A DNA stretch of 64,000 bases, taken from NCBI RefSeq assembly GCF_024362525.1, contig NZ_CP101458.1, positions 868,001-932,000 on the forward strand, written 5' to 3'. Made by a program: the position numbers and the translations under genes. The notes beneath the pieces were generated by a model. It saw only the letters and a list, made by a program, of their open reading frames with translations. It was not told the DNA's origin and ran no database searches. The DNA is from Natrononativus amylolyticus (GTDB taxonomy: Archaea; Halobacteriota; Halobacteria; Halobacteriales; Natrialbaceae). Of this stretch, positions 3,732 through 8,078 are shown piece by piece; the stretch's first letter is position 1, and each line of letters opens with the position of its first letter.

Positions 3732-4199
3732 CTACAGCTCCTCGAGCGACCGCAGCTTCTGTTCGACCGCCGGCGGGGCCGCGCTCGGTCCGTCGCGGAC
3801 GCGGTGGTCGGGGATCAGGATCGGCGCCGGGTTCTCCGCGAGCGCCGTCCGAACCAGGGTGAGGTCCTCGTCGCTCTCCGGGTCGAGCCCGGCCATCCGC
3901 GCGAGCGTCCTGACGTCGATGTCGTCGCCGTAGGGGATCGCCCGCACCTGCTCGAGCACCCGCCGCTGGTCGGTCGGAACCGTCAGGGCGACCTGGACGT
4001 CGTCGAACTCGACTTCGATGACGCCCTCGAGGTACTCGAACAGCCGCTCGAGAACCGGATGGTCGTCCTCCGCGTCCGGATCGGCGGCATTCGGAAACGA
4101 GACGCTCAACACTCGGCCGCTGGCGACGCCGACCTGGACGACCGACTCGAGATACGACGACTCCCGCGCGTAGATCCCCGCGTCCGTTACGTCCTCCAT
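3732..4199 (-). CDS. MGMT/alkyltransferase-like protein lacking the catalytic cysteine
   Basis: A 155-residue protein whose C-terminal half matches the O6-alkylguanine-DNA alkyltransferase DNA-binding fold. AIPYG (88-91) is followed by a helix-turn-helix-like segment and then RTALAENP and ILIPDHRV. In active MGMT the last motif is IPCHRV; here the acceptor cysteine is an aspartate (D131). This resembles alkyltransferase-like (ATL) proteins, which bind alkylated DNA without repairing it, although those usually carry Trp or Ala at this site. The start at 4199 was chosen because it gives a compact domain; the upstream reading is antisense to the trp promoter and trpC. It is divergent from trpC across a 94-base intergenic region, so it may share regulation with trp. 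DNA damage sensing is inference. Confidence 0.75.
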   Translation of the reverse strand: MEDVTDAGIYARESSYLESVVQVGVASGRVLSVSFPNAADPDAEDDHPVLERLFEYLEGVIEVEFDDVQVALTVPTDQRRVLEQVRAIPYGDDIDVRTLARMAGLDPESDEDLTLVRTALAENPAPILIPDHRVRDGPSAAPPAVEQKLRSLEEL

Positions 4200-4258
4200 G
4201 CGGCGTTGCAAGCGCGGCGCGGACTTGAATATTCGCCGGATCGGTCCCCGCGCCGCAA

Positions 4259-4293
4259 GGTTTTTGTACAGATGAGTACGTCGTTGTACAACA
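4259..4293 (+). promoter_or_regulatory. trpCBA promoter with two TGTACA boxes
   Basis: Directly before trpC lie two identical hexamers TGTACA at 4265-4270 and 4285-4290, exactly 20 bases apart (about two helical turns), with a further GTAC between them. The first overlaps a TATA-like element (tttttgtaca, about 28 bases before the ATG), so transcription would start at or near the ATG at 4294 (leaderless). TGTACA is, as I recall, the consensus TRP box bound by the methanogen repressor TrpY. Its use here is inference, because no TrpY-like gene is visible in the window. Confidence 0.55.
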
Positions 4294-5091
4294 ATGGTAT
4301 CTGAACTGGAGGTCGATCCCGCGGTCCGGGCCATCCTCGAGGCCGCACGGGAGCGCACCGGCGGGGACCGCATCTCGGTCGACGCGCGGCCGATCGCGGA
4401 CGCGTTCGCCGACACCGCGGCCGACGGCCGCGTGCCGGTGATCGCCGAGGTGAAGCCGACGAGTCCGACGACCGACGGCACCCGCCGGGGCGACCCAGTC
4501 GACCTCGCGCGGGCGATGGTCGACGGCGGCGCGAGCGCGATCTCGGTGCTCACAGAGCCGACGCACTTCGGCGGCACGCCGGAGGCGCTGGCGCGAATCC
4601 GCGACGCCGTCGACGTGCCGGTGCTCCGCAAGGACTTCGTCCTGCGAGAGGACCACCTCGACGTCGTCGAAGCCGACCTGGTGTTGCTCATCGTGCGATT
4701 TCTCGAGGAGGACGACGCCGAGGACCTCGAGACGCTACTCGCGGCCGCCCGCGAGCGCGGCTTCCAGGCGCTCGTCGAGGTTCACGACGCAACCGAACTC
4801 GAGGCCGCCCTCGAGGCCGGCGCCGAGATCGTCGGCGTGAACAACCGGGACCTGGGCAGCCTCGAGGTGGACCTGGCGACCTTCGAGCGCGTCGCGCCGC
4901 TCGTTCCGGAGGACGTCACCCTAATCGCCGAAAGCGGCGTCTCGACCCCCGAGGACGTCGCCCGGATGCGCGAGGCGGGCGCGGACGCCCTGCTCGTCGG
5001 CAGCGCGATCATGGGACACGAGCGCGGCGACAGCGCGGCGACGCCGGCAGCGGTTCGCGAGAACACGCGGAGACTGGTACACGATGAGTAA
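4294..5091 (+). CDS. trpC: Indole-3-glycerol-phosphate synthase (TrpC)
   Basis: Converts 1-(o-carboxyphenylamino)-1-deoxyribulose 5-phosphate to indole-3-glycerol phosphate in tryptophan synthesis. The 265-residue product is a (beta/alpha)8 barrel. The family signature AEVKPTSPT (catalytic Lys at 54) lies near the N terminus, LRKDF (K113) is the second active-site lysine, and GVNNRDL, ESGV and LLVGSAIM form the phosphate-binding C-terminal strands. Length and motifs are normal for the single-domain enzyme. The gene starts a transcription unit, since the ATG follows the TGTACA-box promoter immediately. Its stop overlaps the trpB start by 8 bases, so the two are translationally coupled. Confidence 0.97.
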
Positions 5092-6364
5092 ATCGAGTTT
5101 CGGACGGTACGGCGGACAGTTCGTTCCCGAGGCGCTGATGCCCGCCCTCGAGGAGTTAGAAGACGCCTACGAACGCTACGTTCTCGGCAACGAGGACGGC
5201 TTCGTGGACGAGTTTCGCGAGCGCCTGCGCGAGTTCGGCGGGCGACCGACGCCGCTCCAGCGCGCGGATCGGCTGAGCGAGCGCTACGGTCGGGAAGTCT
5301 ACCTCAAGCGCGAGGACCTGGTTCACGGCGGCGCCCACAAGCTAAACAACGCGCTCGGCCAGGTGCTGCTCGCGAAGTACATGGGCAAAGAGCGGATCGT
5401 CGCCGAAACGGGCGCGGGCCAACACGGTACGGCGACCGCGATGGCGGCGGCTCACCTCGAGATGCCCTGTGAGATCTACATGGGTCGCACCGACGTCAAC
5501 CGCCAGCGGCCGAACGTCTACCGGATGCGGATGCTGGGCGCCGAGGTGACCCCCGTCGAGACGGGGCGGGGCACCCTGAAGGAGGCGATCAACGAGACGA
5601 TGCGCGACTGGGCGGGGAGCGTGGAGACGACCCACTACGTGATCGGGAGCGTCGTCGGCCCGCACCCGTTTCCGGAGATGGTCCGGGAGTTCCAGTCCGT
5701 GATCGGCGAGGAGGCCCGCGAGCAGGTGCTGGAGCGGGCGGGGCGACTCCCCGACAGCGTCGTCGCCTGCGCCGGCGGCGGCTCGAACACGATGGGAGCG
5801 TTTCACGCGTTCGTTCCCGATTCCGACGTCGGGCTGTACGCCGTCGAAGCCGGCGGCTCGAGTCTCGAGATCGACGCCGAAGCGGGCGTCGCGCCCAACT
5901 CCGCGACCCTCTCGACGGGGAGCGACGGCGTCCTCCACGGCGCGATGACGAAGCTCCTCCAGAGCGAGGACGGCCAGATAATGGAGTCACACAGCGTGAG
6001 CGCCGGCCTCGACTACGCCGGCGTCGGCCCGGAGCTCTCGAATCTGGTCGACACCGGCCGCGTCACGCCGGACAGCGTCGACGACGACGCGGCACTCGAG
6101 GCCTTCCACCGGCTCTCCCGGCTCGAGGGGATCATTCCGGCCCTCGAGTCCTCCCACGCCCTCGCCTACCTGGAGCGCGCGGCGGGGACCGCCGCGGAAC
6201 GAGCGAGCGGCGACGAGCCGCGAGCAGAAGCTCACGAAGAACTCGGCGAGCTCGTCGTCGTGAACGTCTCCGGGCGGGGCGATAAAGACCTGGAAACGGT
6301 GCTCGAGGAGACCGAAAAGCGGGATCTCGAGGCCGCGCCGGACGTGGAGGTGTTCGAACAGTGA
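5084..6364 (+). CDS. trpB: Tryptophan synthase beta chain (TrpB)
   Basis: PLP-dependent subunit that condenses indole with serine. The 426-residue product has the TrpB1-type hallmarks: GGQFVPE near the N terminus, the PLP-binding lysine K86 in [16 protein letters not shown], and the glycine-rich phosphate-binding loop AGGGSNT near residue 231. The C-terminal extension of about 25 acidic residues is typical of haloarchaea. It overlaps trpC by 8 bases and trpA by 4 bases (GTGA). The partners needed for indole channelling are therefore coexpressed. Confidence 0.97.
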
Positions 6365-7257
6365 CCCGCGAGGATCGACGACCGGAGGAGAGAGAGCCTC
6401 GAGATGACGAGCGGGGAGTAACACGACCCGCGAGTGACATCGAGCGCGCTATCCGCGAGAACCACCCCGCGCTCATCGCCTACGTCACCGCGGGTGATCC
6501 CTCCCTCGAGGCGACGAAGGAGTACGTCGAGGCCCTGGACCGCGGTGGGGCGGATCTGATCGAACTCGGGCTCCCGTTCTCGGAGCCGATCGCCGAGGGG
6601 CCGACGATCCAGGCGGCGATCAACCGCGCGCTCGAGGCCGGCACCACGCCTGCGGGCTTTTTCGACCTCGTGGACTCGCTCTCCGTCGAAGCACCGCTGC
6701 TGGTGATGACGTACTACAACATGATTCTGCAGCACGGTTCCGAACCGGGGGCTGACGTCCGCCCGTTCGTCGAGCGCGCCGCCGACGCCGGCCTGTCGGG
6801 GATAATCGTCCCCGACCTGCCCGCGGAGGAGGCCGAGCCGCTCCGGGCGGCCTGCGACGACCACGGTCTCGATCTCGTGTTCATCGTCGCGCCGACGACC
6901 GCGGGCGAGCGCCTCGAGCGGATCATGGATCGGGCGTCGGGGTTCGCCTACGTCCAGGCCCGGCTCGGAACCACGGGCGCTCGCGGCGACGTCTCGAGGG
7001 CGACCCACGACAGCCTCGCGAGACTCGAGGCGTACGACGACGCGGGCGTCCCGAAAGCCGTCGGCTTCGGCGTCAGCGAGGGCGACCACGCCGCCGAGAT
7101 CGTCGCGGCGGGCGCCGACGGCGTCATCGTCGGCAGCGCCCTGGTGGACATCATCGCGACGAGCGAGACGCCCGCGGCGGATCTCGAGGCGAAGGCCCGC
7201 GAACTCAAGGCGGGCGCGCGCCGGGGGGCAGATGTACCGGAACCGGAACAGCCTTAA
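6361..7257 (+). CDS. trpA: Tryptophan synthase alpha chain (TrpA)
   Basis: Cleaves indole-3-glycerol phosphate to indole and glyceraldehyde 3-phosphate and passes indole to TrpB. The 298-residue product is a TIM barrel, started here at the GTG that overlaps the trpB stop. The first about 25 residues are charged and poorly ordered, and a later start is possible. The catalytic glutamate is E68 in IELGLPFS. Eleven residues on, where E. coli has the second catalytic residue D60 (motif LADGP), this protein has IAEGP with E79. It also has SEP in place of SDP. I recall this Asp-to-Glu form from other haloarchaea, so it is probably a lineage trait and not damage. Confidence 0.95.
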
Positions 7258-7283: not shown

Positions 7284-8078
7284 ATGGAGACAGGAATCGA
7301 CGCGCGACTCGAGCGGATCGGAACGGACGGGCGGTACCTCGTCGTTCCGATGGACCACGGAATCACCCTCGGGGCCGTCACCGGCCTCAAAGACATCGAA
7401 TCGACGATCGACGGCGTGACACGCGGCGGCGCCGACGCCGTGTTGACCCAGAAGGGGATCGCCCCGCGGGTCCACCCGAACAAGAACGGCGCGGGCTACG
7501 TCGTCCACGTCAACGCCTCGACGGCGATCGGCCCCGACGAGAACGACAAACGGATGACCGCCACCGTCGAGGAGGCGATCCGCGTCGGCGCCGACGCCGT
7601 CTCGCTGCACATCAACGTCGGCTCGAGACACGAGCCCGACCAGCTCGAGGACCTGGCGGCGCTCACCGCCGACGCCGGCCGCTTCGGCATCCCGGTTCTC
7701 GCGATGGCGTACGCCCGCGGCCCGGAGGTCGACAGCACCGATCCGGAGGCGCTCGGCCACGCCGTCCGCCTCGCCGAGGAGGCCGGTGCCGACGTCGTCA
7801 AGACGGGGTACAGCGGGGACGCCGAGAGCTTCGAGCACGTCGTCGAGTCGACGCGTCTGCCCGTCGTCATCGCCGGCGGCTCGAAGGGGACGGATAGAGA
7901 GACCCTCGAGATGGTCCGCGGCGTGATGGACGCTGGCGGGGCGGGCGTCTCGATGGGACGGTCGATCTTCCAGCACGAGGACCCGGAGGCGATCACGCGC
8001 GGGGTCTCGGGGATCGTTCACGACGACCTCGCCGTCGAGGAGGCGCTGCGGGAGGCGGGGCTGGCGCTCGAGGCCTGA
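7284..8078 (+). CDS. 2-amino-3,7-dideoxy-D-threo-hept-6-ulosonate (ADH) synthase
   Basis: Class I aldolase (FbaB/DhnA family) that makes the first committed intermediate of the archaeal route to 3-dehydroquinate and so feeds aromatic amino acids. The 264-residue product shows VPMDHGITLG (D24), a conserved tyrosine (Y143, MAYARGP) and the Schiff-base lysine K173 in VVKTGYSG, followed by GGSKG and SMGRSIFQ, which bind phosphate. These distinguish it from glycolytic aldolase mainly by context: it lies 26 bases after trpA in the same direction. Its usual partner, dehydroquinate synthase II, is not in this window. The ATG at 7284 is preferred over an upstream TTG. Confidence 0.88.
   Translation: METGIDARLERIGTDGRYLVVPMDHGITLGAVTGLKDIESTIDGVTRGGADAVLTQKGIAPRVHPNKNGAGYVVHVNASTAIGPDENDKRMTATVEEAIRVGADAVSLHINVGSRHEPDQLEDLAALTADAGRFGIPVLAMAYARGPEVDSTDPEALGHAVRLAEEAGADVVKTGYSGDAESFEHVVESTRLPVVIAGGSKGTDRETLEMVRGVMDAGGAGVSMGRSIFQHEDPEAITRGVSGIVHDDLAVEEALREAGLALEA

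Follow-up and report, generated by a model that had tools for sequence, protein, structure and literature searches.

The hexamer TGTACA is the TRP box of TrpY, known from the trpEGCFBAD operon of the methanogen M. thermautotrophicus. Beyond Thermococcus and a single methanogen, little has been established, to our knowledge, on how archaea regulate tryptophan synthesis. In the Thermococcales, trp and aro operons are likewise governed by an archaeal regulator, Tar (TK0271), but this protein is an activator, and the site given for it, TGGACA-N8-TGTCCA, is not a 10-bp TGTACA array (PMC6737238). The same 2019 paper states that haloarchaeal TrpY homologues had not yet been examined, and no account of a trp operator or of a TrpY role in haloarchaea turned up in the open-access literature. 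Paired TGTACA core hexamers are also a feature of the operators of YefM/Axe antitoxins, but these lie in bacterial toxin-antitoxin promoters, have core centres 12 bp apart and are read by an unrelated protein family (PMC7730913). Lastly, the Lrp/AsnC proteins of Halobacterium, such as LrpA2, are amino-acid responsive, and one of them responds to aromatic amino acid starvation, as reported in PMC4162585, but no TGTACA array is tied to Lrp/AsnC regulators in the literature found.

We then focused our attention on the trpC promoter of Natrononativus amylolyticus, within a 64-kb stretch of DNA analyzed as a whole (hereafter the window). The original prediction had placed perfect TGTACA hexamers 20 bases apart over the TATA region of trpC; this was borne out, and a third GTAC (4276-4279) that had been missed was found between them. 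Box 1 (TGTACA, 4265-4270), the central box 2 (AGTACG, 4275-4280) and box 3 (TGTACA, 4285-4290), none of them assigned to a strand, have their GTAC starts at 4266, 4276 and 4286, so that the array runs in exact 10-bp steps from the TATA-like element to the trpC ATG at 4294, with box 3 ending 3 bases before this codon. The outer hexamers are thus 20 bp apart from start to start, with a 14-bp gap between them, unlike the 12-bp spacing of the YefM/Phd type of operator; counting the centre, the step is 10 bp, and the site lies before trpC. Box 1, which is conserved in relatives, overlaps the 3' part of the TATA-like element TTTTTGTA (4261-4268), itself part of a conserved putative promoter core on the forward strand (4254-4268), in which a BRE-like CGCAAG is followed by the TATA-like (C/T)TT(A/T)TG and which abuts box 1. 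A short out-of-frame ORF of 10 residues (4272-4304) lies within the operator and overlaps the trpC start, and its ATG is kept in many relatives. It was considered as a leader peptide and rejected, since its ATG at 4272 lies downstream of the TATA-like element but ahead of the presumed start, and the ORF is therefore probably not transcribed.

The hexamer is over-represented in the window, with seven occurrences against 1.57 expected, a count reached in none of 100 shuffles. Scored as three TGTACA-like boxes at a pitch of 10, the array reaches 16 of 18, the runner-up in the 64 kb scoring 12. Dinucleotide shuffles of the window gave a maximum of 13, with a score of at least 14 in 0 of 200, and an exact TGTACA pair 20 bp apart appeared in none of the 200. 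Sequence-pattern scans were extended to the whole 4-Mb genome, where TGTACA-N8..30-TGTACA occurs at three places (control, none) and TGTACA-N5-GTAC-N5-TGTACA with up to three mismatches at four (control, one). Two of the three hexamer pairs have the 14-bp gap, namely the trpC site and a site before a leuA-like gene. The latter, at G000:C1:2197732-2197757 (L003:1501-1526), is an exact TGTACA-N14-TGTACA upstream of a TATA element and of a gene resembling 2-isopropylmalate synthase (leuA), and may be an additional target as judged from its sequence.

A comparison of trp upstream regions across haloarchaea found the array conserved at trpC, at the second trp operon and beyond. The original prediction, which was to fall if close relatives did not share the paired boxes, withstood this check. 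Of the 125 genomes of the family, 108, from 28 of 29 genera, contain the triple GTAC pattern, while a reversed control occurs in three genomes; the triple pattern is mostly found at one site per genome, and the places listed are mostly just upstream of trpC, a gene found in 124 of the 125. Besides these, a second triple-GTAC site, GTACATCTATGTACGCTGCCGTAC in L051, is shared, with near forms, by several genomes of genus g10. Across 119 trpC upstream regions the common form was CGCAAG-(C/T)TT(A/T)TGTACA-N5-GTnC-N5-TGTAC, with varying surroundings. For scoring, 118 upstream regions were used, composed of 30 family loci, 29 of the 30 loci of a second set (L130 omitted) and 60 regions hand-chosen from listed places (13 of which belong to family genomes, mostly those lacking the triple pattern), minus L200, a 51-base stub. 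These 118 span 54 genera and 13 families; at pitch 10, 107 of them scored at least 14, whereas at each of the pitches 6-9 and 11-16 none did. Box 3 stands 3 bases from the trpC ATG in 100 of the 118 relatives. In seven of the 11 regions below 14, the score is 13 and the array keeps its place immediately ahead of the ATG; three others belong to family f9, in which the array lies before trpBA rather than trpC (L401-L403), and the last to family f11 (L117).

Chance, or a coincidence driven by codon usage, might be invoked on the grounds that hexamer pairs also occur elsewhere in the genome, but the shuffles and the ten other pitches give it nothing to build on; conservation already refutes it, and we regard it as practically negligible. 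The conservation is not uniform along the array. In haloarchaea it is strongest at the two outer boxes, whereas the central one differs from relative to relative: where both outer boxes are exact, it reads GTAC in 34, GTCC in 19, GTGC in 8, GCAC in 4, GTTC in 4, GTCG in 1 and GACC in 1. This suggests a dimer spanning two helical turns, with a weaker contact at the centre.

Downstream of the array, on the forward strand, lie trpC, for indole-3-glycerol phosphate synthase (4294-5091), trpB (5084-6364) and trpA (6361-7257), followed by a gene for ADTH synthase, the first step of the archaeal aromatic pathway (7284-8078). The latter probably belongs to the trpCBA operon, by analogy with the trpCBA-OE1472F unit of H. 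salinarum described in PMC4162585. On the reverse strand, an MGMT-like ORF (3732-4199), with a 6-O-methylguanine methyltransferase DNA-binding domain, diverges from trpC, and it had been proposed that this gene could share control. No support was found for this idea: the ORF is absent near trpC in 10 of 60 loci, six of which (L010, L013, L014, L015, L020 and L025) retain the full triple box, and it is not needed for the operator.

The second trp operon, trpDFEG, carries a longer version of the array. In haloarchaea, N. amylolyticus included, four boxes lie just downstream of a CTTAAG-type TATA element, those of this genome being TGTACT, TGGACA, AAGACA and AGTACA in 10-bp steps. With a threshold of 17 out of 24, 26 of 27 trpD loci pass at pitch 10; among the control pitches, one locus passes at 15 and none at the other nine.

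Beyond haloarchaea, most of the families examined have 10-bp arrays ahead of their trp operon, no matter which gene comes first in it. For 17 loci from 16 further families of the phylum, we determined where in each locus the highest-scoring four-box array lies. At pitch 10 it preceded the first trp gene in 10.75 loci, whereas other pitches gave 0.57-3.58 and the expectation from position was 0.58; this set omits L206, L207 and L209 of family f24, which lack an array pair (on a second look no array was seen for L206 and L209 either). Under a fixed rule, 14 loci of a second set of 20 had the array where the trp operon begins when the pitch was 10; other pitches gave 1.0-4.17, and the upper-bound expectation was 2.51. 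Depending on the family, the first gene behind the array is trpC, trpD, trpE or trpB2, and in methanogens the distance to the start codon varies. These observations bear on the idea that the boxes are mere core promoter sequence, kept for transcription with no regulator involved. Their overlap with the TATA element and the start site is what such sequence would show, but the exact 10-bp pitch, the near-uniqueness per genome and the recurrence of the array before different first genes, at varying distances from the start codon in methanogens, make this explanation very improbable.

A looser operator pattern (TT, boxes and ATG) was also scanned over 84,980 species, yielding 115 stretches, of which 80 were retrieved and examined. 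They comprise 75 trp promoters, one Natrialba site cut at the locus edge (L264) and four bacterial sites; TrpC follows by motif in 71 of the 80, and by its N-terminus in two more (L247 and L293). Haloferax sulfurifontis and Halobacterium bonnevillei are among the named haloarchaea with the operator in the examined stretches, and the operator is also found at the trpE promoter of a Methanomassiliicoccaceae MAG (L268:1054-1088) and at the trpC promoter of archaeon LFW-280 (L285:2515-2549). Two of the stretches, L243 and L291, come from candidate-phylum bacteria and have pair or triple TGTACA arrays before ORFs that we take to be YefM/Phd-like antitoxins. These arrays are in line with the TGTACA core published for YefM operators, with 12 bp from centre to centre (PMC7730913).

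The genome encodes one TrpY-family regulator, found among its ACT-domain ORFs: a protein of 167 aa at G000:C1:79277-79765, adjoining an ORF named HisB by eye, with an N-terminal HTH and a C-terminal ACT domain. It matches the NCBIfam profile NF053754 (TrpY_fam) with an E-value of 7e-71 and 237.5 bits against a cut-off of 180, while a PDB search with the protein returned no relative. As in M. thermautotrophicus, TGTACA boxes lie over a trp-operon promoter, and a TrpY-family HTH-ACT protein, placed by its family profile, is encoded in the genome. In contrast to the adjacent, divergent and autoregulated trpY of that organism, the gene here lies about 793 kb from trpC (at 872294), unlinked and beside hisB, and its own promoter has no array; none was found at haloarchaeal trpY promoters, and the best three-box score in the 150 bp upstream of trpY in this genome is 9. 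Both the distance and the lack of an array speak against TrpY as the regulator. A further difference is that two operons bear arrays here; their boxes run in strict 10-bp steps, three at trpC and four at trpD. Linkage and autoregulation of trpY are a trait of the founding example and not of the DNA site, and what is described here is probably a variant of the known TrpY/TRP-box system.

TrpY_fam is found in 122 of the 125 family genomes. In the order, 287 of 293 genomes have it, 284 of them with a score exceeding the cut-off, and none of the 255 near-complete ones lacks it; in the phylum, 112 of 120 genomes exceed the cut-off. Haloferax volcanii and Methanosarcina acetivorans, used as controls, match the profile, whereas a third control, Methanocaldococcus jannaschii, does not. 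Being so widespread, the family is not singled out by its presence alone, and a comparison of TrpY and trpC presence and absence is uninformative because both are near-universal. Nevertheless, the original prediction that a TrpY-like repressor site operates in haloarchaea gains support, at the level of sequence, from the conservation of the array and from the presence of a TrpY-family gene in every near-complete haloarchaeal genome searched. Four genomes weigh against TrpY as the binder: the array occurs without a TrpY over the cut-off in G456 (L268, a weak ACT match only), in G457 (L285) and the haloarchaeal MAG G461 (L276), neither of which has even such a match, and without any TrpY_fam match in G381, which is 78% complete. 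The TrpC of G461 marks it as haloarchaeal, and since every near-complete haloarchaeal genome searched has TrpY, incompleteness is a reasonable account of this case; it may also account for G456, G457 and G381.

Variation in the regulator and in the array was then compared across the phylum. Four genomes of family f24 have trpY oriented divergently from trpC, a trpY-trp arrangement like that of M. thermautotrophicus, and two of them (L206 and L208) have all seven trp genes alongside; the trp promoters of this family (L205-L208) lack TGTACA arrays, the trpC promoter having TATAC repeats instead. The recognition helix of TrpY in f24 and f21 reads DR(K/N)VVV, as opposed to DRRx(V/I)(D/N), and the two families form one clade with a support of 1.0 in a tree with 40 of 42 sequences. 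In family f26, TrpY is not over the cut-off and the array is absent. Overall, the array is present in 25 of 29 loci with the DRR-type helix (counting f18, which has a tied top score, and L379, with the array just upstream of the trpE frame, as positive by judgement), in 0 of 5 with the DRK/DRN type and in 1 of 3 in which TrpY was undetected. The DRR-type misses are f35, with a degenerate array by eye, two f30 loci and G386; in the latter three, trpC stands without other recognised trp genes nearby. Fisher's test gave 1.2e-5 without the lone-trpC loci and 2.3e-4 with them, values that are descriptive only, as counts were hand-entered and loci are not independent. As the helix change is confined to one clade, its covariation with the array is one event, and the covariation of TrpY and array amounts to two evolutionary events at best.

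Altogether, we consider it likely that the boxes are the trpCBA operator and that TrpY, once loaded with tryptophan, occupies the array and shuts out TBP/TFB, where binding, dependence on tryptophan and repression are all inferred. As the three boxes are in helical phase and all face the same side of the double helix, from the TATA element up to the transcription start, steric repression by a TrpY oligomer is the simplest reading, and the TrpY-family repressor encoded beside hisB would be the most likely binder. Tryptophan would fill the ACT domains, and TrpY would assemble along the array, keeping TBP/TFB and RNA polymerase off; when tryptophan drops, TrpY would leave and trpCBA would be made. 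The trpDFEG operon, with its four-box version, would be controlled together with trpCBA.

It is also conceivable, but unlikely, that another amino-acid-responsive regulator, e.g., the Lrp/AsnC protein LrpA2, binds the array and that the TrpY_fam protein does something else. Lrp/AsnC proteins can also bind helically phased sites, and operator-bearing genomes without a TrpY match exist. Against this stand the identity of TGTACA as the hexamer recognized by TrpY, the loss of the array in the altered-helix clade and in the TrpY-less f26, and the divergent position of trpY in f24. As to published work, H. salinarum deprived of aromatic amino acids raises LrpA2 (OE2776F) 14.9-fold (PMC4162585), and the T. 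kodakarensis TrpY homologue is reported not to regulate the trp operon (PMC6737238), which counts against TrpY as the trp regulator.

Binding by TrpY need not mean tryptophan-dependent repression, as TrpY on the array might mainly activate or modulate transcription in response to a different ligand. PMC13147458, citing Large 2007, calls the trpCBA promoter of Haloferax not tightly regulated, which counts against the proposed repression, but the array lies over the TATA element and the start site in haloarchaea, a blocking geometry, and depriving H. salinarum of aromatic amino acids induces its trp genes, as TrpY repression predicts (PMC4162585). Hence we hold an activating or modulating role to be improbable.

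At a broader scale, we lean slightly towards an ancestral, phylum-wide tryptophan regulon, in which a phased GTAC array, read by a near-universal TrpY oligomer, would have stayed with the trp genes through the reshuffling of operons (trpC-, trpD-, trpE- and trpB2-first), and in which helix and operator would have been exchanged together in f21 and f24, a natural switch of specificity. Work with Haloferax routinely uses trpA as a marker and tryptophan as an inducer. This analysis provides a candidate regulator by name, precise coordinates for the operator and a prediction for the whole phylum that can be tested in Haloferax, where hidden trp regulation would also matter for commonly used vectors.
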